Source: Flavobacteriales bacterium | Lineage (GTDB): Bacteria; Bacteroidota; Bacteroidia; Flavobacteriales_D; Crocinitomicaceae | Direction of reading: 5' to 3' | Assembly: GCA_015665275.1 (NCBI GenBank) | Contig: JADFAL010000014.1 | Coordinates: forward strand, 1 to 56,620 | Length of the DNA stretch: 56,620 bases | In this document: positions 15,408 to 37,520 of the stretch, piece by piece | Position numbering within the stretch: position 1 is the first letter of the stretch | Layout of the letters: each line of letters starts with the position of its first letter | The notes under the pieces: generated by a model | The model's input: the letters and a program-made list of their open reading frames with translations, nothing else | Databases searched by the model: none | Told to the model about the DNA's origin: nothing | Made by a program: the position numbers and the translations under genes

Positions 15408-15472
15408 GTGGAAAGCTGAAAGTTTGAAAGTTGAAAGAAATCCTTCTACTTTCCACTTTAGGCTTTCCGCTT
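15408..15472 (-). repeat. Imperfect hairpin with GAAAG-type tandem arms (etfB-etfA spacer)
   Basis: The left arm (15408-15437) is a row of degenerate heptamers of the type TGAAAGT. The right arm (15444-15472) is close to its reverse complement (CTTTCC, CTTTA, CTTTCC units). Aligning one arm with the complement of the other gives roughly 80 percent identity by eye. It fills nearly the whole spacer and ends about 14 bases before the etfA start. Confidence 0.75.
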
Positions 15473-15474
15473 AA

Positions 15475-16215
15475 TTAAATGACTTTCGCTTCGTTGTGTA
15501 GTAACTCTACCAATTCGTCCATATTCTCAGGATCAATCATCTTACACTCCGATTTTGCCGGTGGCAATGAATAGCTTGTGAAAGAAGTCAAAGCCTGGAT
15601 ATCTGCCGGAGCAACGACATTCAATGGTTTTGTACGTGCGGCCATAATTCCGCGCATATTTGGAATACGTTGTTCCGCCATTCCTTTGGCACAAGAAACA
15701 ACTGCAGGTAATGCTACTTCAACCGTTTGAATTCCTCCAACGATTTCTGTATCCAATGTCGCAGTTGAACCACCTACTTCCATACGAGATGCTAGTGAAA
15801 CAAATGGAACATCCATTCCTTCAGCAATCATTCCTGCAACTTGAGATCCGTTGTAGTTGATTGTTTCTTTCCCTGTCAACACCAAATCAAATCCATTTGA
15901 CTTTGCATATTCGGCAATTTGCATTGCTGTATAATATGCGTCTGTCGGCTCGGCATCAATGCGAACGGCTTCGTCTGCTCCAATAGCAAGAGCTTTTCGG
16001 ATAACGGAATCATCCGCAGCAGAACCCACTGTAATAATAGATACGGATCCACCTCCAGCTTCTTTCAATTCAAGAGCACGAACCAAAGCGTACCATTCGT
16101 CATATGGATTGACAATATATTGTACTCCGTTCTCGTCAAACTTCGTATCGCCGTCTGTGAATGCGATCTTCGAAGTAGTATCCGGAGATTTACTTATACA
16201 TACAAGAATTTTCAT
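15475..16215 (-). CDS. etfB: Electron transfer flavoprotein subunit beta
   Basis: The 246-residue protein has the ETF-beta signature (GADEAVRID near residue 85, then LTGKETINYNGSQVAGMIAE) and the AMP-binding region typical of the subunit. It pairs with EtfA, encoded next on the same strand. The product has no signal sequence and is cytoplasmic. The region upstream is shared with divergent pdhB. Confidence 0.95.
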   Translation of the reverse strand: MKILVCISKSPDTTSKIAFTDGDTKFDENGVQYIVNPYDEWYALVRALELKEAGGGSVSIITVGSAADDSVIRKALAIGADEAVRIDAEPTDAYYTAMQIAEYAKSNGFDLVLTGKETINYNGSQVAGMIAEGMDVPFVSLASRMEVGGSTATLDTEIVGGIQTVEVALPAVVSCAKGMAEQRIPNMRGIMAARTKPLNVVAPADIQALTSFTSYSLPPAKSECKMIDPENMDELVELLHNEAKVI

Positions 16216-16533
16216 GAAATTTTCGCTTTAAAATCGAACGCGAAAATAGTAAAATCTAAGGGGAAAAAGTAGCGTAAAGCGCAGAGAAATAGGATCAAAT
16301 TGAAATTATTGGAGACGTATGAAGCATTTTTACTTGAAATCGCATCATGATTGCTTAATTGTAGCGTAAAATGAAAATCTCTAAATACTTCATGTACATT
16401 GCAATTGGTAGGGATTTAAATACTTATTGTTCAAAATACCCTAAGTGCAATAATTATTTCTTTTTTGTGATTCATGAAATTTGTACATTTGACTTCCGAT
16501 TTAGTCTTAATTTTGACTGTGTAAATTACGAAA
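16216..16533. other. Divergent intergenic region etfB / pdhB
   Basis: It contains the pdhB promoter at 16464-16491 and AT-rich sequence. A reading frame from 16371 that overlaps the start of pdhB has no family resemblance and starts upstream of the promoter box, so I do not call it. Confidence 0.6.
16464..16491 (+). promoter_or_regulatory. Promoter of pdhB
   Basis: TTTG (16464-16467), 16 bases, then TACATTTG (16484-16491). Both boxes match the Bacteroidota consensus and the spacer is a little short. The leader would be about 35-40 bases. Confidence 0.65.
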
Positions 16534-17514
16534 ATGAAAACATTACAATTCCGCGAGGCTTTAAGAGAGGCGATGTCAGAGGAGATGCGTGCCGATAAAA
16601 ACGTATTTCTAATGGGTGAGGAGGTAGCAGAATATAATGGGGCCTATAAGGTGTCTCAAGGTATGCTCGACGAATTTGGTCCCGACCGTGTAATTGATAC
16701 TCCAATTGCTGAGTTAGGATTTTCTGGAATTGCAGTTGGAGCTTCCATGAATGGATTACGCCCGATTGTTGAATTCATGACATGGAACTTTGCAATTTTA
16801 GCAGCCGATCAAATCATCAACAGTGCAGCAAAGATGTTGCAGATGTCTGGTGGTCAGTATCACTGTCCAATTGTATTTCGTGGAGGAAACGGTACTGCGG
16901 GACAGTTGGGAGCAACACACTCTCAAAGCTTCGAGTCATTCTATGCACACGTTCCAGGTTTGAAGGTGATTACGCCATCGAATCCTTACGATGCTAAAGG
17001 CTTGTTGAAGGCTGCAATTCGTGATGAGGACCCTGTTGTTTTTCTTGAGTCAGAGAAAATGTACGGAGATAAAGGAGAAGTTCCTGAAGGAGAATACATC
17101 ATTCCAATCGGTGTTGCAGATATCAAGCGCAAAGGACATAGCGTAACTATCGTGACATTTGGAAAAATTATCAAAGTAGCTCAAAAAGCGGCGGCGGCGT
17201 TGGCTCAAGAAGGGATTGAATGTGAAATCATCGACTTGAGAACAGTGCGTCCAATCGATTATGCAGCAGTAGTGGATTCTGTAAAGAAAACCAACCGTTG
17301 TGTTGTTGTGGAGGAGTCTTGGCCGTTAGCATCCATTTCTTCTGAAATTGCTTACCATTTACAACGATATGCATTCGATCATTTGGATGCTCCCGTAATG
17401 CGCGTTACTCAAACGGATACGCCATTCGCATTTTCACCAACATTGATTGAGGAAGCACTGCCAAACGTAGAGCGAATCGTGAATGCGGTGAAATCTACAT
17501 TGTACAGAAACTAG
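16534..17514 (+). CDS. pdhB: Pyruvate dehydrogenase E1 component subunit beta
   Basis: The 326-residue protein has the transketolase pyrimidine-binding core (MGEEVAEYNGAYKVSQGM, the catalytic-site glutamate region) and the C-terminal domain beginning around residue 200. It forms the alpha2beta2 E1 enzyme that decarboxylates pyruvate with thiamine diphosphate for acetyl-CoA formation. The E1-alpha gene is not adjacent: it stands as a single gene with its own promoter and terminator. Related branched-chain oxoacid E1-beta proteins look alike, but length and motif wording favour pyruvate. Confidence 0.92.
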   Translation: MKTLQFREALREAMSEEMRADKNVFLMGEEVAEYNGAYKVSQGMLDEFGPDRVIDTPIAELGFSGIAVGASMNGLRPIVEFMTWNFAILAADQIINSAAKMLQMSGGQYHCPIVFRGGNGTAGQLGATHSQSFESFYAHVPGLKVITPSNPYDAKGLLKAAIRDEDPVVFLESEKMYGDKGEVPEGEYIIPIGVADIKRKGHSVTIVTFGKIIKVAQKAAAALAQEGIECEIIDLRTVRPIDYAAVVDSVKKTNRCVVVEESWPLASISSEIAYHLQRYAFDHLDAPVMRVTQTDTPFAFSPTLIEEALPNVERIVNAVKSTLYRN

Positions 17515-17536
17515 AATTCACAACATAAAAATACAG

Positions 17537-17562
17537 AGGAGGTCATTTGGCCTCCTTTTTTT
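17537..17562 (+). terminator. Intrinsic terminator of pdhB
   Basis: AGGAGG (17537-17542) pairs with CCTCCT (17551-17556) over an 8-base loop, followed by a run of T. Confidence 0.85.
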
Positions 17563-17848
17563 ATGCGTATAAATGGCGCTTACAAGTTGATAGCTAATGC
17601 CTCAACCGAAATTCATGTAGCTCGTTTTCCCGAAATCCACAATTTTTTTAAGAGCGATTCAGCATGAATTGACACACATAACGCACATGTGTTTCTCAAA
17701 TGATTCGTGAATTGTCCCAAGGGATATCTCGCGATTTTAAAAACTAAACAATGCATAATCAATAGTATAAGTATTGCTAATTAAAATGTGAACAAAGCTT
17801 ATGCTTAGTAACGGTAGTTTTGTGCCAACTAAATTAAAATCACTAAAT
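17563..17848. other. Intergenic region before broken outer-membrane gene
   Basis: No gene is visible. The TAGTTTTG box at 17815-17822 matches the -7 consensus and would give a 20-base leader for the gene at 17849. Confidence 0.5.
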
Positions 17849-18364
17849 ATGAAGAAATTACTAATTGTTGTGAGAATCATTCTCATGGGTAATACGGCTA
17901 AGGCTCAGGATTATTATCACGGTCTTGGAGGTCAAATAAACTACGGTTTGTTTAAAAGCAACTTTGGGATTTGACGGAGGTCGCGGGCCTTCTTTCGGAT
18001 TATCGGCATATCCTTTCGCTGGGCTTTCGTTCAATACAGCAGCTGGGTCTTCACTTGGAGCAGAGTTGCCAATTGTTGGAGAGGTGCATTTTGGAGAATT
18101 TGACGATAGAGACTTCTTTATTGGTGCAGGCTTTTCAGCATCATTCACTGCTGGAGACGGAGATTTTGGTGGAGGTGGAGGTTCCATTCTCGGCCTACAA
18201 TTGTCACTAGGTGGTCAGTTTGAAGCTGCAGGCAGACTGCTTGGTTTGCGCTTTGCGTACACCTAGGCGTCAATAGAAATAAAACAACAGATTTATTGGG
18301 TGTTGAGTCATTGACCAAGAAATCATTGTTCTCACTGGGTGCATATTACTTATTTGGACAGTAA
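17849..18364 (+). pseudogene. Small secreted or outer-membrane beta-rich protein gene with two compensating frameshifts
   Basis: The ATG at 17849 starts a signal peptide (MKKLLIVVRIILMGNTAKA before QDYY). The frame stops at 17972 (TGA). Removing one A from the AAAA run near 17954-17957 joins it to a second frame reading GLFKATLGFDGGRGPSFG, rich in glycine and strand-like, which runs to TAG at 18264. A missing base near 18260 would join that to a third stretch (LGVNRNKTTDLLG to SLGAYYLFGQ, stop at 18362), in the original frame. Together about 170 residues. A promoter-like box and a terminator frame it. Function unknown. Confidence 0.7.
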
Positions 18365-18386
18365 TTTGTAGAAATTCTAAATTCGT

Positions 18387-18419
18387 AAAGAGTCGTGCAA
18401 ATGCTGTACGGCTCTTTTT
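18387..18419. terminator. Terminator between convergent genes
   Basis: AAAGAGTCGT pairs with ACGGCTCTTT (one G-U), loop of 11 bases, with T on the plus-strand side and T on the complement side, so it can serve both directions. Confidence 0.8.
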
Positions 18420-20187
18420 ATTTCCGTATCAAACTTGTCGCATTAATCTTGAATTCTTTCAATTCCACCGCGGCACTTCCAATATTTTGAATGTAAATCT
18501 GCATCGAATCCGCTTCGTGTCGAACATCCGGAAGATTGAATCTCAGGGTGTCGTAAATTTCAATTCCTTGCCGTCTTCCAAGTGACAACTCCATACTGTT
18601 CCAACTGTAACAATTATATCGGCTCACGCATTCCATTCTAAGAACGGTACTTTGAGCGGAATCCGCAGTCGTAAAAACCAATGGCACCTCAAGAAGAGTT
18701 TCATCTGTTTCGAAGGTTTTGTACAAGTTGATTTTACCTAAAGACATATCTCCATTTAAAGGTGGGATAGCTTTCGTTCTGCGATTATAAACCGTTCTTG
18801 ATATAATTTTGAAAGGCAAGTCTTTGTCCTTTGCTAGTTGTCTTGGCCAATCTAAATCACCGCGATCAATGAGTAAATACCTGTGATGAATATCCTTAGG
18901 ATCCATTTTTCCAAACACCAGCCAATAATGCTCTTTGGTCATCCGTTCGCTGTGCAATATGCCCAATCGGATTTGCTCGCTTTGATACAGGTTCAAGGTG
19001 AGGCAGAGAGCGAGGAATGTTCCAGCGCCAATTTGTCCAGTTCTTGTTCGAAGTGCATCAATGACAAAAGCCAAAGGGATCGCAAGAATCGGATAAATGT
19101 CTACCATTACACGTTGGCCGAAAGAATGAGCATACCACCAGCACTCCCAAGCACTCATTACATATATATAGATAGCGCCAAACGATACAATGGCCCAAAA
19201 TAAGGTGCGGTTCTTTTTGTACATGATCCAAAAACCAACTGGGAGAATCAAAAAAAGTGGTGAGTACAGCAGCCATCCTTTTCTATAGGAGAAGAGGAAA
19301 TCGTATAAATTCGGATCGCCAAGTACAATGTCTTCGGTATGGAGGTTTAAAATAACCCATTCGCCACCGACTAACTTCCAATACAGCAATTGAGGGATAT
19401 TGCACAGAAGAACAACGCCTCCTAGGATGAGCATGTGTCGAACAAACTTTCGGGTCTTGCCAAGTTCTTTTAATAAGAGAAGAAATGGAATCAGCCCGAA
19501 AACCAATTGCGTCGGACGGATGCATACGGCCAAGCCGAACAAAATGGCAAAGAACCAAAAGGATCGCGCTCGATCTTCTTTGATGAATCGCATCAAATGA
19601 TAAAGAGCCGCAGCATTAATGGTGAACAGATATAGATGCGGGAGATCGTATTGATAATTGAAGATGAAGTAAGTGTTCGCTCCCAACGTGACTAGAATCA
19701 ATGTAATAATTGTTGCAGTTTCGCTCGCGAAGAAGTGCAGAAGCTTTCTTAAATAGAGTAATCCTAGAAATATAAACAGCAGGGCGTTTAGTTGGTAGCC
19801 TACATGGTAAGGAGTGGAAAAGCCATCGGTTGGATAGCCGCCGATTCGTGCTGCAATGTCAGAAATGGCATACGAGGGAAGCAGTGCAAATGACAATCCC
19901 ATATGGTAAATATTGACGTCCGCTTTCAGATTTCTTTTCTCCAGTTGATATGCATGTGCTCTAAAACAATATTGATCCTGACGCCGCTGCATCCATTCTT
20001 GATCGAATTTCAAATCCCCTTTTTCATAGATGCGCGGTAAGTAGGAGTAATATCCGTAGCCGTCATATGCACACAAACAAGGCTTTTGTCCTGAGGTAAC
20101 GTCGGAAATCTTGTCAAAGGTGGTAAATGCAAATACCATGGATAGTAGAATTACAATTTTACCAGAAAGTGTTCTGTGCCAGGACAT
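18418..20187 (-). CDS. Polytopic membrane protein, probable GT-C-type glycosyltransferase (589 aa)
   Basis: The protein has an N-terminal membrane segment, a first outside loop with acidic-aromatic residues (CAYDGYGYYSYLPRIYEKGDL), roughly ten further hydrophobic segments up to about residue 400, and a soluble C-terminal region of beta character. This layout resembles GT-C glycosyltransferases that use lipid-linked sugars, but I do not recognise a named family. It is divergent from a second GT-C-type gene with 61 bases between. The -7 box TATCTTTG ends 4 bases before the ATG. Confidence 0.6.
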   Translation of the reverse strand: MSWHRTLSGKIVILLSMVFAFTTFDKISDVTSGQKPCLCAYDGYGYYSYLPRIYEKGDLKFDQEWMQRRQDQYCFRAHAYQLEKRNLKADVNIYHMGLSFALLPSYAISDIAARIGGYPTDGFSTPYHVGYQLNALLFIFLGLLYLRKLLHFFASETATIITLILVTLGANTYFIFNYQYDLPHLYLFTINAAALYHLMRFIKEDRARSFWFFAILFGLAVCIRPTQLVFGLIPFLLLLKELGKTRKFVRHMLILGGVVLLCNIPQLLYWKLVGGEWVILNLHTEDIVLGDPNLYDFLFSYRKGWLLYSPLFLILPVGFWIMYKKNRTLFWAIVSFGAIYIYVMSAWECWWYAHSFGQRVMVDIYPILAIPLAFVIDALRTRTGQIGAGTFLALCLTLNLYQSEQIRLGILHSERMTKEHYWLVFGKMDPKDIHHRYLLIDRGDLDWPRQLAKDKDLPFKIISRTVYNRRTKAIPPLNGDMSLGKINLYKTFETDETLLEVPLVFTTADSAQSTVLRMECVSRYNCYSWNSMELSLGRRQGIEIYDTLRFNLPDVRHEADSMQIYIQNIGSAAVELKEFKINATSLIRK

Positions 20188-20191
20188 GGGT

Positions 20192-20199
20192 CAAAGATA
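20192..20199 (-). promoter_or_regulatory. -7 box 4 bases before the membrane glycosyltransferase-like start
   Basis: The minus strand reads TATCTTTG, ACCC, ATG, a perfect -7 match placed so that transcription would begin at the start codon. Confidence 0.55.
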
Positions 20200-20248
20200 A
20201 GTTTCTTTTTACGTTATTTGTCTAGCAAAACTTCGGAGTAATTAACGA

Positions 20249-21712
20249 ATGAATAAAGAAATTATCATGAGCGGGACGGTGCTACTTCTGGTGGCTGGCG
20301 TCTTCGTTTTTATTTCGAGGGGACTGCATCTTATGGATAGTCATAATCTTTCGGCATTTTTTCTAATGTTAGTAAGTGCAGTATTCTGTTTGTTCGTTGC
20401 GTCAACTAATTACCTTCTGCCATGGGATGAGCGATATCACGCTTTGGTTGCTAAGAATCTTATCGAACACCCATTGCTTCCAGCGCTCTATGAAAACCCA
20501 ATTCTTCCCTATGATTATAAGCAGTGGGCCGGAAATCATATTTGGGTGCACAAACAGCCCGTGACTTTATGGGGGATGGCATTGAGTATAAAGTTATTCG
20601 GTACAAATGTAATTGCGGTTTGATTGCCTTCCATCTTAATGGCAATGTTTGGTGTTTTGATTACGTATTTAATTGGAAAACGATTGTTCAATCCGCGCGT
20701 GGGTTTGATAGCAGCATTCTTCTTTGCGATTAACGGGTTGATTTTGGATCTAGTCGGGGCTAGAATGGCGACAGATCATGTCGATGTGTTTTTCATGTTC
20801 TTCGTGGCATTGGCCGTTCTGTGCGCTGTTTACTTCGCTCAAACGCGAAAATTCTGGTGGAACCTCCTCTGCGGTTTATGTGTTGGAATGGCAATCCTCT
20901 GCAAATGGCTCCCAGCATTGATAGTGCTTCCTATTTGGTTGGTACTGGTCCTGCATTATAGGTGGAAATTCAAACAGTTCTTTTTTCATGGACTAGGACT
21001 AATTGCAGTGATTGTTGCTTTAGCGCTTCCTTGGCAATTGTACATTCATGCAAGTTTCCCGTTGGAAGCTATCTGGGAAAGTAAGTACAACATAATGCAC
21101 CTCTATCAGGATTTAGAAAATACAGGTAAGCCATGGTATTATTATGCGGATGTCATGCGCGTGTCCTATGGCGAATTGATCTACGTCCCATTTGTTTGGT
21201 TAATCGTTCGGGCCATTCGAAAAAAGAATGATGGGAGGTATTGGGCGCTATTAATTTGGATTGTAATTCCGTTTCTTTTCTTCTCGTTCTCGGCTACGAA
21301 GTTGCAAGGGTATGTTTTGTTTTGCTCCTCCGCCTTGTTTTTGGTGACTGCAGTTTTTATAGACAGCACATTAAAGAAGGAAATTAAGTTCAAATGGAAC
21401 TGGCTGCGCTACACGGTGCTAGTTCTTTTGTTCGCCTTGCCAATTCGATATAGTATGGAACGACTGAAGCCTTTCGAAAAACGCCCGGAAGTTCCTGAAT
21501 GGCAATCGAGAATTGATGATTTCGCTAATACTTCCGCAAACACAAAAAATGCAGTTGTGTTCAATACAGAGCACCCGATAGAATTCATGTTTCATACTAA
21601 GGCAAGAGCTTACATTGGGATCCCGGGAGAAGGGCTCATGGACTCCTTAAGAAATGTCGGTTACCAAGTGTATCTAATCAATGAATCCGGTAGTCCGGAA
21701 AAATGGAAATAA
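20249..21712 (+). pseudogene. GT39/ArnT-like membrane glycosyltransferase interrupted by in-frame TGA
   Basis: A single frame of 488 codons runs from the ATG at 20249 to TAA at 21712, but codon 125 (20621-20623) is TGA. Before it: a first loop with DE at residues 60-61 (PWDERYHALVAKNL), the catalytic-loop hallmark of PMT/ArnT enzymes. After it: LPSILMAMFGVLITYLIGKRLF, which in the family normally reads RLPS, so the stop is most simply CGA (Arg) changed to TGA. Multiple membrane segments follow. Intact relatives move sugars from polyprenyl phosphate to lipid A, protein or other acceptors. Readthrough or a sequencing error would also fit. Confidence 0.85.
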
Positions 21713-21858
21713 ATCGTCAGGCGCTAATTGAAGAGGAATTTATAATTTAAGTATCCACCTTCCACATTCCGTCTATAACCTTCCATAGCCATAATCAAAG
21801 TGAATATCTTGTTGAAAACTTCAATCTAATATATTTAACAGATCCAGAGTCAGATTTT

Positions 21859-21866
21859 TATATTTG
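21859..21866 (+). promoter_or_regulatory. -7 box 5 bases before a small ORF
   Basis: TATATTTG, AGTAC, ATG. A perfect match to TAnnTTTG next to a start codon. Confidence 0.4.
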
Positions 21867-21871
21867 AGTAC

Positions 21872-21958
21872 ATGAAAATCGCACCGAAAATATTCGGGAT
21901 TCAGAACCACGATTTTCACTCCGATTCGAATCGGATTTTTGCTCGCAAGAAGATGTAA
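21872..21958 (+). CDS. Possible small ORF (28 aa) upstream of rpsL
   Basis: The frame MKIAPKIFGIQ...FARKKM is 28 codons with a basic composition. It starts 5 bases after a perfect -7 box. The palindrome CCGATTCGAATCGG with ATTTTT lies inside it near the end. It may be a real small protein, a leader peptide or chance. No family is known to me. Confidence 0.25.
   Translation: MKIAPKIFGIQNHDFHSDSNRIFARKKM
21921..21934. repeat. Perfect 14-bp palindrome
   Basis: CCGATTCGAATCGG is its own reverse complement and is followed by ATTTTT. It could be an operator half-site pair or a weak terminator for a short transcript from 21870. Confidence 0.45.
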
Positions 21959-22000
21959 ACATTTCAATGTGAAAAAACACGTCTTTTTTTGCGAAGTCCC

Positions 22001-22030
22001 TTGATTTATAAAATTATCCTTCTATCTTTG
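22001..22030 (+). promoter_or_regulatory. Promoter of the str-S10 superoperon
   Basis: TTG (22001-22003), 19 bases, TATCTTTG (22023-22030). Both boxes and spacing match the Bacteroidota sigma-A consensus. Transcription should start near 22035. Confidence 0.9.
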
Positions 22031-22034
22031 CACC

Positions 22035-22052
22035 CCCAAAAGTGTGTTTGGG
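22035..22052 (+). promoter_or_regulatory. 5'-end hairpin of the rpsL leader
   Basis: CCCAAA pairs perfectly with TTTGGG over a 6-base loop, right at the predicted 5' end of the transcript. It may protect the message or bind a regulator. Confidence 0.5.
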
Positions 22053-22088
22053 CTGATTTTATATTAATTAAAGTTAACAGTATTTTTT

Positions 22089-22463
22089 ATGCCAACTATC
22101 CAACAATTAGTTCGCAAAGGGAGAAAGCAGGTGGTTAAGAAATCAAAGTCTGCGGCTTTGGATTCTTGCCCTCAGCGTAAAGGAGTATGTGTGCGTGTGT
22201 ACACCACTACACCTAAGAAGCCGAATTCGGCTATGCGAAAAGTAGCCCGTGTCAGATTGACCAACGGGAATGAAGTGAATGCTTATATCGGAGGTGAAGG
22301 TCACAACCTACAAGAGCACTCGTTAGTATTAGTACGTGGAGGTCGTGTTAAAGATCTTCCAGGTGTACGTTACCACATCGTTCGCGGTGCGGAAGATACA
22401 GCGGGAGTAGAAGGTCGTACTCAGCGCCGTTCGAAGTACGGAGCGAAACGTCCAAAGAAATAA
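22089..22463 (+). CDS. rpsL: 30S ribosomal protein S12
   Basis: The 124 residues include TTPKKPNSA at 40-48 and [10 protein letters not shown] at 88-97. Lysines are present at the two positions (43 and 88 counting Met) where streptomycin-resistance changes usually occur, so the protein is of the sensitive type. S12 sits at the decoding centre. It is the first gene of the superoperon, behind a 53-base AT-rich leader without a Shine-Dalgarno sequence. Confidence 0.98.
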
Positions 22464-22481
22464 CCTTTTAAGCATTGAACG

Positions 22482-22952
22482 ATGAGAAGAAGAAAAGCGA
22501 AAAAAATAGCCATCCTTCCGGATCCGAAATTCAACGATACTCAAGTAACGAAATTCGTTAATAACTTGATGTTTTCAGGAAAGAAGAACTTGGCATTCAA
22601 AATTTTCTACGATGCAATTGAAATCGTAGATGGTAAAGTAGAAGAAACAACAGGATTGGAAACATGGAAAAAAGCATTGGAAAATGTAAATCCACCAGTT
22701 GAGGTTCGTAGCCGCCGTGTTGGAGGGGCAACGTTCCAGATCCCAACTCCAGTTCGTGAGTCGCGCAAGCACTCTTTGGGTATGAAATGGTTGATCGGAT
22801 ACGCTCGCAAGCGCAACGAGAAAACAATGGCTCAAAAACTTGCAGCAGAAATCATTGCAGCATCGAAAGAAGAAGGTGCAGCATTCAAGAAGAAAGAAGA
22901 TACGCTTCGAATGGCTGAAGCAAACAAAGCATTCTCACATTTCAGATTCTAA
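22482..22952 (+). CDS. rpsG: 30S ribosomal protein S7
   Basis: The 156-residue protein matches S7 (MRRRKAKK start, [17 protein letters not shown]). S7 binds the 3' domain of 16S rRNA and organises the head of the small subunit. It lies 18 bases after rpsL and 5 bases before fusA. In enterobacteria S7 represses the str operon, but no matching site is evident in this short spacer. Confidence 0.98.
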
Positions 22953-22957
22953 GAAAG

Positions 22958-28483: not shown

Positions 28484-28493
28484 TTTTAGATAA

Positions 28494-29207: not shown

Positions 29208-29259
29208 ACTTCCCATGCGTCAATTGACGGAAGGGAATAACAGAAAAAACTAGGAGAAA

Positions 29260-29688: not shown

Positions 29689-29695
29689 TTGAAGG

Positions 29696-29890
29696 ATGAA
29701 GCAGGAAGAAATTTCAAAGTTGTCCGCACAGGACCTACAGGATCAAATCTCAAACCGTACTGAGCAATTGCAAAAAATGAAATTGGGACACTCAGTGTCA
29801 CCAATGGAAAACCCTTTGCAGATTAAGCACTTGAGAAGATCCATCGCAAGATTGAAAACAGAATTAACAAAACGTCAAGCTGAGGCCTAG
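29696..29890 (+). CDS. rpmC: 50S ribosomal protein L29
   Basis: This 64-residue two-helix protein ([36 protein letters not shown]) is L29, next to the tunnel exit. It lies between rplP and rpsQ as expected. Confidence 0.96.
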
Positions 29891-29916
29891 GCCTTGGTGA
29901 GAAATTAGCTTGTAAG

Positions 29917-30174
29917 ATGGAAAAGCGAAATCTAAGAAAAGAACGTATCGGGATCGTAACGAGCAACAAAATGGACAAGTCAATTGTCGTTTCTGTTGAA
30001 CGTCGTGTAAAACACCCGAAGTACGGAAAGTTCATTAAGAACACAACTAAATTCGTAGCTCACGATGAAAAGAATGAGTGCGGAGAAGGAGATACTGTTC
30101 GTATCATGGAAACACGTCCACTTTCTAAGTCGAAGAACTGGAGAATGGTGGAGATTGTTGAACGCGCTAAATAA
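29917..30174 (+). CDS. rpsQ: 30S ribosomal protein S17
   Basis: The 85-residue OB-fold protein has [19 protein letters not shown] and [12 protein letters not shown], the S17 signature. It is a primary binder of 16S rRNA. Confidence 0.97.
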
Positions 30175-30183
30175 TTTGGAGTA

Positions 30184-30552
30184 ATGTTACAAACAGAATC
30201 AAGATTAAAGGTAGCAGACAATTCAGGAGCAAAAGAGGTACTAGTTATCCGTGTTCTTGGAGGTACTCGACGTCGTTATGCTTCGGTAGGAGATAAGATT
30301 GTCGTTACTGTGAAAAGTGCAATGCCTAACGGACAAGTAAAGAAAGGAACAGTTGCGACAGCAGTTGTAGTAAGAACAAAGAAAGAAGTACGTCGTCCAG
30401 ACGGTTCTTACATCCGCTTTGATGATAACGCTTGCGTTATTCTAAATCAAGCAGGTGAGATGAGAGGAACTCGTATTTTCGGACCCGTTGCTCGAGAGCT
30501 TCGTGATGCAGACTACATGAAAGTAGTTTCATTGGCTCCTGAGGTACTTTAA
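30184..30552 (+). CDS. rplN: 50S ribosomal protein L14
   Basis: The 122-residue protein begins [19 protein letters not shown] and ends with the conserved EVL. It forms an inter-subunit bridge and is the target of the silencing factor RsfS. Confidence 0.98.
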
Positions 30553-30565
30553 AATAATGGAAGTC

Positions 30566-30883
30566 ATGTCACAGAAATTACACATTAAAGTAGGGGACAC
30601 GGTAAAAGTTATTACCGGAGAGTCCAACGGTCAGGAAGGAAAAGTTCTTTCGATCGATAAGAAAAGCATGCGTGCGACTGTTGAAGGTGTTAACCTTGTT
30701 AAGAAACACCAGAAGCCAAGTGCGCAGGATCCGCAAGGAGGAATCGTGGAAAAAGAAGCAGGAGTTCACGTTTCAAACCTTATGATTGTCGTGAAAGGCG
30801 AAGCAACACGCATCGGCCGTAAACTAGACAAGAACGGAAAGTCAGTACGTTATTCTAAGAAATCAGGAGAGGAGATTAAGTAA
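30566..30883 (+). CDS. rplX: 50S ribosomal protein L24
   Basis: The KOW-domain protein ([24 protein letters not shown]) is L24, an assembly initiator. Two in-frame ATGs are possible, 30557 and 30566. I prefer 30566 because it matches the usual short N-terminus, giving 105 residues. Its stop overlaps the rplE start (TAATG). Confidence 0.93.
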
Positions 30884-31434
30884 TGAGTTATACACCAAGA
30901 CTTCGAGAACAGTATAAGGCGGACATTGTACCCGCACTTACTGAAAAGTTCGGTTACAAATCTGTGATGCAGGTGCCGAAACTTACAAAGATTGTTATGA
31001 GCCAAGGTATCGGTGATGCCGTAGCAGATAAGAAATTGGTTGATACAGCAGTGGAAGATCTATCTCGTATTGCTGGACAACGCGCAGTAGCGACGATTTC
31101 CAAAAAAGACATTTCCAACTTTAAGTTGCGTAAAGGAATGCCGATTGGAACGAAAGTTACTTTGCGAGGAGATAACATGTATGATTTCCTTGACCGTTTA
31201 CTGTCAGTTGCATTACCACGTACTCGAGATTTCCGCGGAGTGAATCCAAAAGGATTTGACGGAAGAGGAAATTTCAACATGGGTGTGAAGGAACATATCA
31301 TCTTCCCAGAAATTGATATTGATAAAGTAAACCGTATCATGGGTATGGACATCACTTTCGTTACAACAGCGGATAGCGATGAAGAAGGAAAAGCATTGTT
31401 AGATGCATTCGGATTTCCATTCCAAAAAAAGTAA
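30883..31434 (+). CDS. rplE: 50S ribosomal protein L5
   Basis: The 183-residue protein has the L5 segments [16 protein letters not shown] and [19 protein letters not shown], and binds 5S rRNA in the central protuberance. Translation is coupled to rplX by a one-base overlap. Confidence 0.98.
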
Positions 31435-31440
31435 AAAGAG

Positions 31441-31755
31441 ATGGCAAAAGAATCAATGAAAGCGCGTGAGCGCAAAAGAGAAAAACTAGCGGCTCGTTAC
31501 GAAGCAAAGCGCGCAGAGTTGACAAAAATCTTGAAATCTCAAGATGACTCTGACGAGATGTGGGAGAAGAAGCAAGAAGCGATGATCAAATTGCAGAAGC
31601 TTCCAGCTAACTCATCCAAGGTTCGTGTACACAACCGTTGTGGTTTGACTGGACGCCCTCGTGGATACATGCGTCAGTTCGGTATTTCACGTGTTACATT
31701 CCGTGAAATGGCCCTTGATGGAAAGATCCCAGGTGTCAAAAAGGCAAGCTGGTAA
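31441..31755 (+). CDS. rpsN: 30S ribosomal protein S14, zinc-free form
   Basis: The C-terminal half ([20 protein letters not shown], end GVKKASW) is diagnostic of S14. With a single cysteine in the zinc region it is the zinc-independent form. At 104 residues it is longer than the 89 that I recall for most Bacteroidota, through an acidic insertion around residues 33-47 ([15 protein letters not shown]), and so resembles the proteobacterial length. It is the last gene before a terminator-like hairpin. Confidence 0.95.
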
Positions 31756-31780
31756 ACAAAAGAGCAAGTAAAAATTAGAG

Positions 31781-31817
31781 AAAAGATGACGGTCAATTAG
31801 GCTATCATCTTTTGTCT
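31781..31817 (+). terminator. Terminator or attenuator hairpin after rpsN
   Basis: AAAAGATGA (31781-31789) pairs perfectly with TCATCTTTT (31805-31813), loop 15 bases, followed by GTCTTTAT. It lies inside the ribosomal superoperon, just before a new promoter. Confidence 0.65.
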
Positions 31818-31828
31818 TTATATCTTTG
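31797..31828 (+). promoter_or_regulatory. Internal promoter before rpsH
   Basis: TTAG (31797-31800), 20 bases, then TATCTTTG (31821-31828), the same -7 box as the rpsL promoter. It overlaps the preceding hairpin. Confidence 0.65.
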
Positions 31829-31840
31829 CCCTCCCAAATT

Positions 31841-31992
31841 AGATGCTAGATAGTCAGAATCTAGACGCTAGACGGTTCAAATCTAGCGTTGAAATTTTGA
31901 GGTTTAGTGACTAATTAAAGGACATTTAGACCGAATAGATTAAAGACCAAAGACGAAAGTCTAGTGTCTGATGTCTCTAAGTCTAGCGTCTA
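31841..31992 (+). repeat. Long imperfect inverted repeat with CTAGA/TAGAC tandem arms (rpsH leader)
   Basis: The left arm 31841-31876 and right arm 31956-31992 are near reverse complements over about 36 bases. Both consist of degenerate CTAGA/TAGAC units. A perfect 12-mer TAGACGCTAGAC (31862-31873) is matched by GTCTAGCGTCTA (31981-31992), and a local alternative hairpin pairs ACGCTAG (31865-31871) with CTAGCGT (31883-31889). The two pairings exclude each other, as in an RNA switch. The spacer contains no gene. Confidence 0.75.
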
Positions 31993-32061
31993 TTAAAAAG
32001 TATTAACTGGATTCAGGTTCGGCTCAAATAAAACCGAAAACCGTTTCCGCAAACTAAGTAT

Positions 32062-32460
32062 ATGAATACAGATCCAATCGCAGATTATCTAACGCGAATT
32101 CGTAACGCAAGCGCGGCACGTAAGAAAGTGGTAGAAATCCCTGGTTCAAAGGTAAAACGAGCAATGACTGAAATCTTGTTCGACCAAGGGTACATTACCA
32201 ACTTCAAATTCGAAGAGGACAATAAGCAAGGAGTCATCAAAATCGCATTGAAGTACAACAATTCGACGAAAGTACCAGCAATCACAAAAATGCAACGTGC
32301 TTCTCGTCCAGGTCTTCGTAAATACAGCAGAGCAAATGGTATGCCGCGTGTATTGAACGGACTGGGAATTGCCATTGTTTCAACATCGAAAGGGGTGATT
32401 ACAGGAAAACAAGCAGAAAAAGAAAACGTAGGAGGAGAGGTTCTCGCTTACGTTTATTAA
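32062..32460 (+). CDS. rpsH: 30S ribosomal protein S8
   Basis: The 132 residues begin with [13 protein letters not shown] and end with the S8 C-terminal motif ([22 protein letters not shown]). S8 is a primary 16S binder and, in E. coli, the repressor of the spc operon. Here its gene starts a separate promoter-leader unit, so autoregulation at the leader is possible but not shown. Confidence 0.98.
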
Positions 32461-32478
32461 TCGTATAAGATAATTATT

Positions 32479-33030
32479 ATGTCAAGGATAGGTAAATCCC
32501 CAGTAACAGTCCCGAGTGGAGTAGAAGTGAAAGTTGACGGTAACGTAGTTACGGTTAAGGGTTCCAAAGGCGAGTTGACACAAGAAATGGACAAAGCTAT
32601 TTCAATGTCAATCGAAGATGGAAGCATATCTTTCACCCGCGAATCAGACGCACCAGATCACCGAGCGAAGCATGGTTTATACCGCGCATTAGTTCAGAAT
32701 ATGATCATTGGCGTTTCGGAAGGGTTTAAAAAGGAACTTGAAGTAATTGGAGTAGGATACCGTGCGAACGCTCAAGGACAAAAACTTGAGTTGTCCCTAG
32801 GTTATTCTCACCCATTTGTACTCGAGCTTCCTAAAGAAATTAAGGTATCAACAGTGTCTGAAAAAGGTAAGGCTCCAATCGTAACTTTGGAATCTCACGA
32901 CAAACAATTAGTAGGACAAGTCGCTGCCAAAATTCGCTCCCTCCGCAAGCCTGAACCATACAAAGGAAAAGGTGTTAAATACGTTGGTGAAGAATTAAGA
33001 AGAAAAGCTGGTAAAGCAGCAGCGAAGTAA
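32479..33030 (+). CDS. rplF: 50S ribosomal protein L6
   Basis: The 183-residue protein (SRIGKSPVTVPSGVEV; LRKPEPYKGKGVKYVGE) is L6, near the factor-binding site. It follows rpsH by 18 bases. Confidence 0.98.
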   Translation: MSRIGKSPVTVPSGVEVKVDGNVVTVKGSKGELTQEMDKAISMSIEDGSISFTRESDAPDHRAKHGLYRALVQNMIIGVSEGFKKELEVIGVGYRANAQGQKLELSLGYSHPFVLELPKEIKVSTVSEKGKAPIVTLESHDKQLVGQVAAKIRSLRKPEPYKGKGVKYVGEELRRKAGKAAAK

Positions 33031-33054
33031 TAACAAGATATCATTAATTAAGTT

Positions 33055-33405
33055 ATGGCATTTGACAAAAACGCTCGTAGAGCAAAAATCAAAAGAAGAA
33101 TCAGAAAGAACATTTCTGGTACTACAGAGATGCCTCGTTTGTCTGTTTTCCGAAGCAACAAACAGATCTACGCACAAGTTATTGACGATACAACTGGAAC
33201 GACTCTAGTTTCTGCATCGTCTTACAACAACAAAGCAGCAAAAGGAAACAAATCCGAAGTAGCTGCAATCGTAGGGAAAGAGGTAGCCGAAAAGGCAGTA
33301 AAAGCCGGGATCACATCAGTAGTATTCGATCGAAACGGATACTTGTACCACGGTAGAGTTAAATCATTGGCTGACTCAGCGAGAGAAGGCGGACTAAAAT
33401 TTTAA
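33055..33405 (+). CDS. rplR: 50S ribosomal protein L18
   Basis: This 116-residue protein ([42 protein letters not shown]) is L18, which binds 5S rRNA with L5. It lies 6 bases before rpsE. Confidence 0.98.
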
Positions 33406-33411
33406 GAGGAA

Positions 33412-33927
33412 ATGGCAAAAGAAGCAAACAGAGTAAAATCTGCAGATATCGAGCTTAAAGACAAGCTTGTTGCCGTGAACCGTGTAACGAAAGTTACGAA
33501 AGGTGGACGTACGTTCAGTTTCTCTGCTATCGTAGTAGTCGGTGATGAAAACGGTATCGTAGGACACGGTCTTGGTAAAGCAAAAGAGGTAACAGAAGCA
33601 ATTGCGAAAGGAATTGACGATGCGAAGAAGAATTTGATTCGCGTTCCAATCCTTCACGGAACTGTTCCTCACATTCAAAAAGGAAAGTATAGCGGTGCAC
33701 GAGTGTTGTTGCGCCCAGCGTCAGAAGGTACAGGAGTTATCGCCGGTGGTGCGATGCGTGCCGTATTGGAGAGCGTTGGAATTCACAATGTCTTGGCAAA
33801 ATCTCAAGGTTCATCAAACCCACACAACGTAGTTAAAGCAACTATCGATGCGTTATCACAAATGCGTGATGCAAACGATGTAGCGCGTCAGCGTGGAGTT
33901 TCACTTGAGAAAGTGTTTAACGGTTAA
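33412..33927 (+). CDS. rpsE: 30S ribosomal protein S5
   Basis: The 171 residues include the S5 double-stranded RNA-binding domain ([22 protein letters not shown]) and the C-terminal domain ([29 protein letters not shown] cut across positions 110-138). It takes part in decoding accuracy and mRNA entry. Confidence 0.98.
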
Positions 33928-33938
33928 TAAGGGCAATC

Positions 33939-34115
33939 ATGGCGAAAATTAAAATTAAGCAAGTAAGAAGCGCTATTAATCGTACAGCAAGACAGAAAGC
34001 AACGATTAAAGCATTAGGATTTAGAAAGTTGAACCACGTGGTAGAACACGAGGAAACTCCGCAAATCCGTGGAATGATTAATAAAGTTCAACACCTTATC
34101 GAGGTAGTTGAGTAA
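33939..34115 (+). CDS. rpmD: 50S ribosomal protein L30
   Basis: A 58-residue product (MAKIKIKQVRSAINRTAR..., ending VQHLIEVVE) is encoded 11 bases after rpsE and 26 before rplO. The motif KQVRSAI...TIKALGFRKLNH and the position identify it as L30. Confidence 0.95.
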   Translation: MAKIKIKQVRSAINRTARQKATIKALGFRKLNHVVEHEETPQIRGMINKVQHLIEVVE

Positions 34116-34141
34116 GAAATCACACTCAAAAAGCACTAAAA

Positions 34142-34588
34142 ATGAATTTACATAATTTAACTCCGGCGAAGGGTTCTACGAAAAATAGAAAACGCATCGC
34201 ACGTGGTCAGGGATCTGGTCGTGGCGGTACTTCCACTCGTGGACACAAAGGAGCAAAATCAAGATCTGGATATTCAAAGAAAGTTGGATTTGAAGGTGGT
34301 CAGATGCCACTTCAGCGTCGAGTACCAAAATTCGGTTTCAAAAATATTAACCGCGTTGAATACAAGGCAATCAACTTGGATATTATTCAATCCCTAATCG
34401 ATCGCAAAAAAGTAACGGAAATTAACCCTACTGTATTGCAAGAGAATGGATTGTGTTCGAAAAACGAATTGGTTAAAATTCTTGGTAGAGGTGAATTGAA
34501 GACTAAGATTGACGTAACTGCTCACAAGTTCTCGACTACTGCGAAGGCAGCAATCGAAGGACAAGGTGGGAATTGTTCAGAAATCTAA
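34142..34588 (+). CDS. rplO: 50S ribosomal protein L15
   Basis: The 148 residues open with NLTPAKGSTKNRKRIARGQGSG and hold the glycine-arginine-rich extension and FEGGQMPLQRRVPKFGF typical of L15. It precedes secY by 25 bases, the standard order. Confidence 0.98.
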   Translation: MNLHNLTPAKGSTKNRKRIARGQGSGRGGTSTRGHKGAKSRSGYSKKVGFEGGQMPLQRRVPKFGFKNINRVEYKAINLDIIQSLIDRKKVTEINPTVLQENGLCSKNELVKILGRGELKTKIDVTAHKFSTTAKAAIEGQGGNCSEI

Positions 34589-34613
34589 TTAAATTTGCCA
34601 ACATTTTTTACCG

Positions 34614-35981
34614 ATGAAAAAGTTTATTGAAAATCTAAAAAACATTTGGAAGGTAGAAGAACTACGTAAGCGTATTCTATTAACGCTTATGATTATTCTG
34701 ATTTACAGAATTGGTTCATTTATCATTCTTCCAGGTGTTGATTATACTGTCCTTCAGGCAGCTAACAACGCACAAGGTGGAGACACAAATATGTTGGAAG
34801 ATCTACTCTCCCTATTTACAGGAGGTAGTTTCACCAACGTTTCCATTATGGCTTTGGGTATCATGCCCTACATTTCTGCATCGATTATTATGCAGTTGTT
34901 GGGGATGGCCGTTCCAGCCGTGCAGAAGTTACAGCAAGAAGGAGAATCCGGTAGAAAACGTATTAACAATTACACACGGCTTCTAACCATTATTATCTGT
35001 GCTGCTCAGGCACCAACGTACATTACACTGTACGCTTCGAGCAAGCAGGCAAATATTGGTAACGGAATGCAATCAGCATTTGAACACGGAACGGGATCGT
35101 TCATGTGGATCTCAGCGATTGTACTTCTTGTAGCAGGAGCAATGTTCGCAGTATGGTTGGGTGAGCGTATCACCGACAAAGGAGTTGGAAATGGTATTTC
35201 CCTCTTGATTACTGTGGGTATCTTAGCCCGTTTGCCACAAGCGTTCATGGCAGAAGTTGGATTGGAATCTCAAAACTTGATCAAAATTGTATTAGAAGTA
35301 TTCGCATTTATGATTGTGGTACTCGGTACAATACTCATTGTTCAAGGGGTTCGGAAAATCCCGTTGGAAACAGCCAAACGTGTTGTTGGTTCTCGTAATG
35401 TAGGGAATCAAGGTGCACGTAGCTACCTTCCAATTAAAGTGAATGCATCTGGGGTAATGCCAATCATCTTCGCTCAGGCGATTATGACCGTCCCCGTGAT
35501 GATATTCTCCAGTCAAGATGGTAGTGGATGGGCGTCCAGAGTATTCGGAGATATCTTCGGATTTGGATACAACGCCGTCATGTTCATTCTAATTGTTGTC
35601 TTTACGTATTTCTACACAGCTATCATGATCAACCCACGCAAGATTGCAGATGAGTTGAAAAAGAGTGGTGGATTTATCCCAGGGGTTCGTCCAGGGGAAG
35701 AAACTGCCAGCTTCATTGATACGCTAGTTTCACGCATTACGTTCCCAGGATCAGTGTTCTTGGCATTCATCGCAATCATTCCTGCATTCGCAAGTATGGC
35801 CGGTGTTAACGCCTCATTCGCAATGTTCTTTGGAGGTACTTCATTGTTGATTATGGTTGGGGTAGTTCTCGACACATTGCAGCAAATTGAATCGTACCTA
35901 TTGAACCGTCAGATGGACGGGTTGATGGAAGGAACGCGTGTAAAAGGAAGACGAAACCAAAACGAAATGTCAGGATTTTAA
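34614..35981 (+). CDS. secY: Protein translocase subunit SecY
   Basis: The 455-residue protein has about ten membrane segments and SecY signatures (YRIGSFIILPGVDY, GERITDKGVGNGISL, the loop ILARLPQAF, and PGVRPGEETASFID in a cytosolic loop). It forms the Sec channel with SecE and SecG. infA follows after 3 bases. There is no adk or map between, unlike many bacteria. Confidence 0.98.
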   Translation: MKKFIENLKNIWKVEELRKRILLTLMIILIYRIGSFIILPGVDYTVLQAANNAQGGDTNMLEDLLSLFTGGSFTNVSIMALGIMPYISASIIMQLLGMAVPAVQKLQQEGESGRKRINNYTRLLTIIICAAQAPTYITLYASSKQANIGNGMQSAFEHGTGSFMWISAIVLLVAGAMFAVWLGERITDKGVGNGISLLITVGILARLPQAFMAEVGLESQNLIKIVLEVFAFMIVVLGTILIVQGVRKIPLETAKRVVGSRNVGNQGARSYLPIKVNASGVMPIIFAQAIMTVPVMIFSSQDGSGWASRVFGDIFGFGYNAVMFILIVVFTYFYTAIMINPRKIADELKKSGGFIPGVRPGEETASFIDTLVSRITFPGSVFLAFIAIIPAFASMAGVNASFAMFFGGTSLLIMVGVVLDTLQQIESYLLNRQMDGLMEGTRVKGRRNQNEMSGF

Positions 35982-35984
35982 GGT

Positions 35985-36203
35985 ATGGCAAAACAAGCAT
36001 CCATAGAACAAGACGGAGTTATCATTGAGGCATTATCGAATGCTATGTTCCGTGTGGAATTGGAAAACGGTCACGTGATTACAGCTCACATTTCCGGAAA
36101 AATGAGAATGTACTACATTAAAATTCTTCCAGGAGATAAAGTGAAAGTTGAGATGTCGCCGTACGATTTGACAAAAGGACGAATTACGTTTAGATATAAG
36201 TAA
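35985..36203 (+). CDS. infA: Translation initiation factor IF-1
   Basis: This 72-residue OB-fold protein ([56 protein letters not shown] in two pieces) is IF-1, which occupies the A site during initiation. Confidence 0.98.
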
Positions 36204-36313
36204 GAAAAAACGAAGCTTTTGATGTGCAAGCTTGGAAAAGCAAGCAGTGATCAACCTAGAACAATTGGTTTGGACAGTGGATCAAAAATCAAGGGCAGAT
36301 TAATAGAAAAAAG

Positions 36314-36430
36314 ATGAAAGTAAGAGCATCAGTAAAAAAGCGATCTGCAGACTGTAAGATCGTGAAGAGAAAAGGAAGGGTTTACGTGATCAACAAAAAG
36401 AACCCAAAGTTTAAACAAAGACAAGGGTAA
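36314..36430 (+). CDS. rpmJ: 50S ribosomal protein L36, zinc-free form
   Basis: The 38-residue product begins [20 protein letters not shown] and ends with NPKFKQRQG. Only one cysteine remains of the usual CxxC...C...H zinc set, so it is the zinc-independent form common in Bacteroidota. It follows infA after 110 bases. Confidence 0.95.
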
Positions 36431-36432
36431 AC

Positions 36433-36502
36433 TTGAATGATGAATAAATAATAATGAATACCAAATAGCTTTTCATTATTCAATATTCATGATTCATAAT
36501 CA
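36433..36502 (+). repeat. Imperfect hairpin with GAAT/ATGAAT tandem arms (rpmJ-rpsM spacer)
   Basis: The left arm 36433-36460 is a row of ATGAATA-type units, and the right arm 36471-36502 is close to its reverse complement, with a loop around CCAAATAGCTT. By eye about 80-85 percent of aligned positions pair. It ends 9 bases before the rpsM start. Confidence 0.75.
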
Positions 36503-36511
36503 GAAAGAATT

Positions 36512-36877
36512 ATGGCACGTATAGCAGGAATAGACCTACCAAAAAATAAACGAGGTGTAATCGGATTGACTTACATCTACGGAATCGGAAGAAGCACGGC
36601 TGCAAAAGTATTGACAGCTGCTGGAGTTGACGAAAACATCAAAGTTCAAGATTGGAACGATGATCAGTTGGGAGCAATTCGTGAGGCAGTAAATACGATC
36701 AAAGTAGAGGGTGCATTGCGTTCAGAAGTACAATTGAACATCAAGCGTTTGATGGATATCGGTTGTCAGCGTGGAATTCGCCACAGAGCGGGATTACCAT
36801 TGAGAGGACAGCGTACTAAGAACAACTCTCGTACAAGAAAAGGAAGAAGAAAAACGGTTGCAAATAAGAAGAAGTAG
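36512..36877 (+). CDS. rpsM: 30S ribosomal protein S13
   Basis: The 121 residues ([40 protein letters not shown]) are S13, a head protein touching P-site tRNA. It is first of the alpha-operon genes. Confidence 0.98.
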
Positions 36878-36885
36878 CAATGCTT

Positions 36886-36921
36886 CTGGTTTGGATTTAC
36901 GCTCGCGTTGGTTCGAATCAG
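36886..36921 (+). repeat. RNA hairpin in rpsM-rpsK spacer
   Basis: CTGGTTTGGAT (36886-36896) and GTTCGAATCAG (36911-36921) pair over 11 positions as RNA when G-U is allowed. Further along the same 179-base spacer CAAATT and AATTTG (36957-36971) form a small second hairpin. Confidence 0.55.
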
Positions 36922-37056
36922 GTTCTTCAGTTTTGTGGTTAGACGGTCCTCAGATTCAAATTGTGAATTTGTACTAATCGTCCCCAAAAAAGAAGAGGCA
37001 GGGCAGGAGCAAGTCTCCTATTCAACTGAAAGCAATAAACATTTAAAGCTAATACA

Positions 37057-37440
37057 ATGGCAAAGACACAAAAAAAGAAAAAGAACGTCAAAGTTGATGC
37101 ACTCGGACAAGCACACGTTCAAGCGACATTCAACAATGTTATTATCTCTTTGACGAATAATTCAGGTCAAGTAATCTCTTGGTCTTCTGCGGGGAAAATG
37201 GGATTCCGTGGGTCTAAAAAGAATACTCCTTACGCAGCTCAAGTAGCAGCTGAGGATGCAGCGAAAGAAGCACACGATGCAGGTCTTCGCAAAGTGAAAG
37301 TTTACGTGAAGGGACCAGGAAACGGTCGTGAATCAGCTATCCGTTCTTTGCACAACTCAGGAATTGAAGTAACAGAAATCATTGACGTTACGCCAATGCC
37401 GCACAACGGATGTCGTCCACCAAAACGTCGTCGCGTATAA
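37057..37440 (+). CDS. rpsK: 30S ribosomal protein S11
   Basis: The 127-residue protein ([15 protein letters not shown]; the end [18 protein letters not shown]) is S11 of the platform, near the E site. It is separated from rpsM by an unusually long, structured spacer. Confidence 0.98.
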
Positions 37441-37520
37441 TTAAGACACTAGAAGCTAGATAAAAAGACGTTAGACATATTAGTCTTGTGTCCAGAGTCT
37501 CATCATCTAGAGTCTGTTAA
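37441..37520 (+). repeat. Imperfect hairpin with CTAGA/GTCT tandem arms (rpsK-rpsD spacer)
   Basis: The left arm 37441-37476 (GACACTAGAAGCTAGATA units) and right arm 37481-37520 (GTCTTGTGTCC, GAGTCT, CTAGAGTCTG units) are near reverse complements, about 70 percent by eye. It uses the same word set as the hairpin before rpsH. Confidence 0.7.

Follow-up and report, generated by a model that had tools for sequence, protein, structure and literature searches.

How do the spacers of bacterial operons come to hold palindromes whose two arms are written in short repeated words? The question is raised by a stretch of 56,620 nt (contig JADFAL010000014.1 of the Flavobacteriales assembly GCA_015665275.1, here called the window), in which four spacers, one between etfB and etfA and three in the ribosomal protein cluster, had been singled out as tandem-word palindromes in the original prediction. 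The answer towards which we lean, with slightly better than even confidence, is that they are degenerate heptad arrays grown by microhomology-anchored slippage together with inverted template switching in tolerant spacers. All four spacers were found to hold arrays and to fold below their shuffles, the hairpin of rpsK-rpsD not being significant by itself. The three word sets initially proposed were recovered, and the unit, first given as 5-9 bases, was corrected by the lag scan to exactly 7, with a minor period-8 set elsewhere. The features are the following:

15410..15468, no strand: palindrome of the etfB-etfA spacer, GAAAGNN heptads, arms 15410-15435 and 15444-15468 (from hairpin, lag-7 and fold z).
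31839..31995, no strand: array of the rpsN-rpsH spacer, TAGACNN heptads, exact 12-nt inverted arms at 31862-31873 and 31981-31992 (fold z −5.4).
36434..36496, no strand: palindrome of the rpmJ-rpsM spacer, GAATNNN heptads, arms 36434-36458 and 36472-36496, 84% complementary (from hairpin and lag-7).
37441..37525, no strand: array of the rpsK-rpsD spacer, degenerate TAGACNN-like heptads, weak palindrome (from fold z and relatives).
37549..37580, + strand: S4-Flavobacteria ribosomal protein leader RF03141, downstream of the rpsK-rpsD array and outside it, given as context.

Strict self-complementarity scores of 25 (etf), 29 (rpsN-rpsH) and 30 (rpmJ-rpsM) were reached in 2/200, 1/200 and 1/200 dinucleotide shuffles of the same spacer, respectively. 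RNA folding, also compared with 200 shuffles, yielded z values of −4.7 and −4.2 for the two strands of the etf spacer, −5.1 for rpsN-rpsH (array alone, −5.4) and −3.7 for rpmJ-rpsM. The rpsK-rpsD spacer is weak taken alone, with a self-complementarity of 15 that is reached in 95/200 shuffles and thus not significant, a lag-7 score of 6, under the threshold of 9, and fold z values of −2.9 for the whole spacer (0/200 as low) and −2.8 for the array only (2/200), so that its case is carried by the comparison with relatives. The best-scoring rpsN-rpsH hairpin was found to pair an upstream promoter-like block with AAAGAC units, not TAGAC arm with TAGAC arm; the TAGAC arms are exact inverted repeats of each other over 12 nt, at a distance of 107 nt. 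As a separate observation, the hairpin block at 31775-31830, upstream of rpsH, overlaps a promoter-like CTTTATATCTTTGC and seems, by eye, to consist of TCTTTNN heptads in several relatives. Rfam, run over the window at the gathering threshold, matched only RF03141 at 37549-37580 and none of the arrays.

The period was determined with a word-independent lag scan, at score thresholds of at least 12, 11 or 9 depending on the test. The host genome (G000; 3.64 Mb in 115 contigs) was sampled over approximately 1.0 Mb, which takes in the window, and the sister species (G020) over 0.58 Mb, which takes in the window's counterpart on contig C16, largely colinear with it in blocks of 74-93% identity. At a score of at least 12, the 477 intergenic regions of G000 (84.8 kb) yielded 10 segments at lag 7, 3 at lag 14 and 0-2 at other lags, compared with 0.8 at lag 7 in shuffles, and 772 kb of coding DNA yielded 0 at lag 7. 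The corresponding values for 207 intergenic regions of G020 were 17 at lag 7, 9 at lag 14, 4 at lag 8 and 0-1 at the others (shuffles, 0.3 at lag 7), with 5 lag-7 segments in 341 kb of coding DNA, inside the 3-16 range of its other lags. Larger samples, scored at 11 or more, gave 16 lag-7 segments in 96.0 kb of G000 spacer (shuffles, 1.4) and 31 in 59.5 kb of G020 spacer (shuffles, 0.6); spacers with lag-7 words are thus far above shuffled controls in both genomes.

A palindromic array was called when a hairpin score of at least 24 was combined with a lag-7 fraction of at least 0.5. The samples of G000 and G020 gave 113 hairpins of that score, 17 of which also reach the fraction, two being judged of low complexity. 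Outside the window, the detector found 4 sites in G000 (L088, L090, L135 and L085), one of low complexity, and L240 came close with a fraction of 0.46; compared with the other sampled G000 stretches, the window thus has a local excess of heptad palindromes. Many arrays are of a single orientation, without a mirrored arm. The distribution over spacer types is only mildly skewed (15/127 convergent, 41/560 co-directional and 9/184 divergent spacers bear arrays).

The relatives compared are metagenome-assembled genomes (MAGs) of species of one genus, not strains of one species. The host SecY shares 96% identity with a MAG protein (locus L002), followed by Fluviicola MAGs at 83% and Crocinitomicaceae at 79%, from which the host would belong in or close to Crocinitomicaceae; the deep nodes of the genus tree have weak support, and the branching order of G000, G020 and G044 is weakly supported (0.03). 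Judging from these sequences, the mirrored architecture is kept at orthologous spacers, the word, assigned by eye for each spacer, often being another in relatives. The etf spacer, only 1-24 nt long in 25/30 genus loci, is written in GAAAGNN in G000, in AAAGAC-like words in G020 and G044 and in TAGACNN in G022, and is longer with a weak hairpin in G008. At rpsN-rpsH the word is TAGAC in G000 and G020 and TTGAC in G044, and G013 has a TAGACAA palindrome at the promoter-like block. At rpsK-rpsD, TAGAC in G000 has its counterpart in GATTTGA in G020 and G044, two arrays set apart by an indel of exactly 7 nt, and in TTGAAAG, TAGAC-like or TCGAT words in other relatives; the spacer measures 74-103 nt in 18/25 loci and 116-164 nt in 7. 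At rpmJ-rpsM, G000 and G020 share a well-conserved array; in 19/24 genus loci this spacer measures 3-13 nt. Since G020 goes with G044 by its words at etf and rpsK-rpsD, yet with G000 at rpsN-rpsH, at least one word change is required at each of these three sites. Short spacers without an array also exist at orthologous loci. Over 200 kb of further colinear sequence, lag-7 segments scoring at least 9 were found in 6 G000 and 16 G020 spacers, 4 sites being shared by both, 1 G000-only, 8 G020-only and 5 unmappable (1 of G000, 4 of G020).

The agreement between the arms was quantified on 20 species-site pairs by scoring all combinations of left and right arms within each site; the arm pairs were picked and cut by hand, and 3 array-like or longer spacers were left out. 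Own arm pairs beat shuffles at the 0.05 level in 16/20 cases. The sum of arm complementarity within species, 542, was reached in 0/20,000 permutations of the right arms among species (405.5 ± 29.1), and the permutation fractions by site were 0.00015 for rpsK-rpsD, 0.042 for etf, 0.083 for rpmJ-rpsM and 0.125 for rpsN-rpsH. For the nine pairs with different words, complementarity was 26.9 within and 14.4 between species (permutation, 0.003).

Within 19 single-orientation arrays of at least 35 nt, identity at successive multiples of lag 7 was 0.73, 0.65, 0.56, 0.49 and 0.42, the first value being inflated by how arrays were detected and the later ones less so, compared with 0.25-0.30 off phase; neighbouring units are most alike. 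GAAT units agree at 0.95-0.99 at positions 2-4 and at 0.69-0.83 at positions 5-7. Core agreement exceeds tail agreement in both GAAT arms (0.925 versus 0.766; core higher in 25/29 arms) and GAAAG arms (0.889 versus 0.698; 10/12 arms), figures that are partly biased because the arrays were assigned by core; a column-contiguity test free of that bias found variable columns to be adjacent beyond chance (65 arms, permutation 0.0005). Permutation of the heptads within one arm of 18 palindromes lowered complementarity only slightly (mean z, 0.97; smallest fraction reaching the observed value, 0.09), and this small cost indicates a mirror that is mainly at the level of the word, with a weak unit-by-unit part. 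Base-by-base compensation between the arms was rejected, complementarity lying mainly at word level. A near-perfect repeat unit was not found in G000, which has 0 exact triple copies of ATTCATA or CTTTCAA and degenerate units; exact heptamer arrays do exist in other genomes of the phylum.

The mechanism that we propose starts from a core of 4-5 bases (e.g. GAAT, GAAAG or TAGAC) that would re-anneal one unit off, the copy gaining or losing 7 bases by slippage. The same core would anneal to its complement on the snapped-back or the opposite strand, and the resulting inverted copying would found the complementary arm. Units with a matching core would go on spreading while their tails drift, and those with a broken core would stop, so that core and tail would come to differ with no selection involved. 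Both arms would receive another word through repeated turnover, or when a tolerant spacer loses its array and regrows one, and the transcript of the array would be an imperfect hairpin, presumably mostly tolerated between genes. The local similarity, the 7-nt step and the constant core all fit slippage anchored by a microhomology of 4-5 bases. We infer alike that the arrays arise in replication, that the core serves as microhomology and that the arrays are tolerated, not selected. Most genus loci have a short etf spacer, and the array-filled ones fall in two parts of the tree, which favours regrowth at this site; an old array lost many times would be a possible alternative. Template switching is known for single quasipalindromes, and their correction by this route was reportedly treated by Lovett in 2004 and by Dutra and Lovett in 2006; the route proposed here to complementary arms is like it, with the difference that it is coupled to 7-base tandem growth. 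A bolder version, which we regard as unlikely, credits Bacteroidota with a replication or repair activity whose copying advances by a constant 7 bases, starting from short cores of either strand; mirrored arrays would then be built, erased and rewritten, the two arms receiving the new word together, a concerted evolution of palindromes without base-by-base compensation. Whichever version applies, palindromes whose two arms bear another word in close relatives are a directly testable system for 7-base slippage with inverted copying versus transposition.

Besides the biases of detection and assignment mentioned above, several observations weigh against slippage with inverted template switching. 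Four of the 20 own arm pairs were not significant against shuffles (0.075, 0.245, 0.250 and 0.560), and none of the compared spacers clearly combined an old arm with a new one, so that regrowth and concerted spread are not separated. A bound core could explain the core/tail pattern equally well, and the weak mirroring of single units, over and above the shared word, is what a selected fold would give. Words recur across sites, array pairs within one mismatch making up 12.3% (a figure somewhat inflated by the counting of sister orthologues) versus 5.3% for letter-permuted words, and the order of GAAT units in G020 is weakly non-random (0.043 at K=12, 0.030 at K=14 and 0.17 at K=16); by taking into account both, some copies may be dispersed, not local.

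The best placed of the other explanations, which we consider possible though doubtful, is that intercistronic RNA hairpins are selected, the fold being kept to stabilise the upstream message or to tune read-through, with any folding word serving; intra-operon hairpins could indeed have either effect. That the four spacers all fold better than shuffles, and that sites with different words in different species are still palindromic, is as expected from such selection, but most genus loci are without an array at two of the spacers (25/30 short at etf, 19/24 at rpmJ-rpsM). The position of three sites within the ribosomal protein cluster, one of them shortly before the S4 leader, and the presence of arrays in only 9/184 divergent spacers, compared with the convergent and co-directional ones, would also fit; against this stand the many single-orientation arrays and the L135 palindrome, which sits between divergent genes. 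A simple consensus scan for intrinsic terminators (GC-containing stem and T run) called none in the four spacers, and the arms, in spite of the weak unit-by-unit mirror beyond the word that selection would explain, match mainly at word level. The persistence of a hairpin across species is no proof of base-by-base selection, because shared words alone leave the arms largely complementary.

Less probable still is that dispersed mobile repeats (REP/REPIN or MITE-like) were copied into spacers and then degenerated. REP, REPIN and BIME elements are short intergenic palindromes in many copies; the arrays are like them as short intergenic palindromes, and unlike them in that they lack a fixed consensus and that the array-rich genomes yielded no RAYT. 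The recurrence of words across sites, the weak sharing of unit order in G020, the similar loops of GAAAG palindromes (by eye) and the REP-like words (motif list chosen by eye) found within 150 nt of 23/71 arrays versus 87/667 array-free spacers would be consistent with dispersal. Y1_Tnp/RAYT (PF01797), present in 13/34 genus genomes, G008 among them, was, however, not found in G000, G020, G044, G022, G047, G013, G006 or G010 (MAGs, 72-99% complete), and the seven GAAT loci of G000 share no 14-mer, compared with 1.3 ± 1.9 from permuted units. No fixed palindromic consensus emerged, and the word differs at one site between species. Dispersed long copies were rejected as a candidate, unit order being shared not at all in G000 and weakly in G020. 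The preference of the original prediction for a generating process over a fixed element is therefore upheld by the decay at multiples of lag 7, the 7-nt difference between sisters, the differing words at the same spacer and the fact that, G008 excepted, no Y1/RAYT was found in the genomes with arrays at these spacers; a match to a REP family of fixed consensus, which would have spoken otherwise, was not obtained, there being no single consensus and no PF01797 found in G000, G020, G044 and G022. Recurring REP-like palindromes with CTGAGGCTCTCGAAG-like or CTCGACAGGCTCGA-like words were observed separately at L144 17844-17930, L160 10126-10198 and L239 379-448, no Y1/RAYT having been found in G000 or G020.

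A repeated binding platform, with one protein contact per 7 bases on RNA (e.g. Rho, one pyrimidine-C per unit) or on DNA, is very improbable: the core positions do vary less than the tail, and pyrimidine arms carry about one TC per unit (by eye), but among the arrays of co-directional spacers 17 have the pyrimidine strand as sense, 16 as antisense and 2 are mixed, a lack of strand preference that argues against an RNA site, Rho-type included, and the cores differ between sites and species. Chance or base composition, with which rpsK-rpsD alone would agree by two measures (strict hairpin and lag-7 score), was rejected, with hardly any residual doubt, on the lag-7 excess over shuffles without a coding peak in two genomes.

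Three exact copies of ATTCATA in tandem were found in 16/296 genomes across the phylum, compared with 1/296 for its scramble, and of CTTTCAA in 4/296. The reversed control of ATTCATA gave 0; that of CTTTCAA matched in 3 of the 4 genomes, but this word read backwards is merely a rotation of itself. A match of the reversed scramble in one further genome (G142) shows that other heptamer words also form arrays. With words recurring both across sites and across the phylum, the early statement that the spacers share only form does not hold. Ten of the phylum array loci were tested, and three proved strongly palindromic (L253, L257 and L258), the 159-nt spacer of L258 having a hairpin score of 84 versus a shuffle maximum of 42. 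In L258, which comes from a genome of another family of the class, the entire convergent spacer at 1413-1571 is one long heptad palindrome, its inner arms with different words. The density of lag-7 segments per 10 kb of spacer was 5.2 in G020, 3.3 in G044, 2.0 in G010 (one segment) and 1.7 in G000. Counts in small samples, at a score of at least 11, were 0 for G015, G022 and G008, 1 for G010 and 4 for G044, two of these four coming from a ribosomal stretch chosen for its arrays; the etf spacer of G022 is array-filled, yet its sample (5.7 kb of intergenic regions) has 0. At the same threshold, 540 intergenic regions from the ribosomal-operon loci of 80 named relatives had no lag-7 peak (4 segments at lag 7, 7 at lag 8, 6 at lag 6 and 4 at lag 14), so that the abundance of the arrays is lineage-specific.

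Tandem heptamers of cyanobacteria (Calothrix) go by the name STRR, and the arrays described here are like these heptanucleotide repeats as tandem heptamers, a likeness by description and not by sequence. Of the two accounts closest to our case, PMC4692102, which also mentions the Calothrix heptanucleotide repeats, describes GGGAATC heptamers of Xanthomonas with convergent inverted pairs, 70 in one genome and 75 in another, and PMC4679880 describes TAACTGA heptamer repeats in Beggiatoaceae, Cyanobacteria and five Bacteroidetes. The Xanthomonas arrays share with ours the intergenic location, a unit of 7 with conserved and variable positions (GGGANTN in Xanthomonas), variation in length and sequence at shared sites and the under-representation of divergent spacers; neighbouring inverted heptad pairs are also present here. 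They differ in consisting of one G-rich, quadruplex-capable word, as opposed to several A/T-rich words, strongly degenerate and differing at one spacer between relatives. The TAACTGA repeats are likewise mostly intergenic, of unit 7, in places mixed with other heptamers and also found at ribosomal protein genes, and the indels of heptamer arrays between Cyanothece strains are mostly in 7-nt steps (PMC4679880). They differ as one word studied, in direct repeats (one indirect is mentioned) that in the main genome are for the most part found a short way upstream of start codons; neither mirrored arms nor word replacement is described in the passages considered. The preference of bacterial intergenic repeats for seven bases, noted but not settled in the papers considered here, is traced by PMC4679880 to polymerase slippage favouring 7, as 7 bases contact the polymerase, an idea attributed to Mrazek 2007. 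Intergenic heptamer arrays and inverted pairs of one heptamer are thus already known, so that the architecture is only in part undescribed, as had been surmised for the whole; what appears to be new here is degenerate mirrored heptads with a word differing between relatives. A literature search, judged by titles and the openings of abstracts and leaving most subscription journals outside, found no account of degenerate mirrored heptads in Bacteroidota with a word differing between related species at one spacer.

Some further observations concern neighbouring or similar elements. A conserved stem-like motif precedes rpsH at 32000-32055 of the window (AACTGG..CAGGTTC..GAAAACCGTTTCCGC), seen by eye in 28/30 genus loci; it has the look of an S8-type leader, with no Rfam match. 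The rpsM-rpsK spacer (36878-37056 in the window) measures 162-251 nt in 10 of the 14 printed same-genus loci and 37-60 nt in the other 4, and many of the longer ones end in GAAAGCAATAAACAT-like sequence, again with no Rfam match. A smaller class of period-8 arrays, with TTTGACGG-like, GGAATATTCC-like and AACTAATTAGC-like words, was found in G020 at L167 1774-2002, L161 3790-4081 and L164 11942-12113. Finally, two convergent spacers (L101 16541-16683 and L088 12173-12381) hold a long inverted repeat rich in CCCCCT/AGGGGG.

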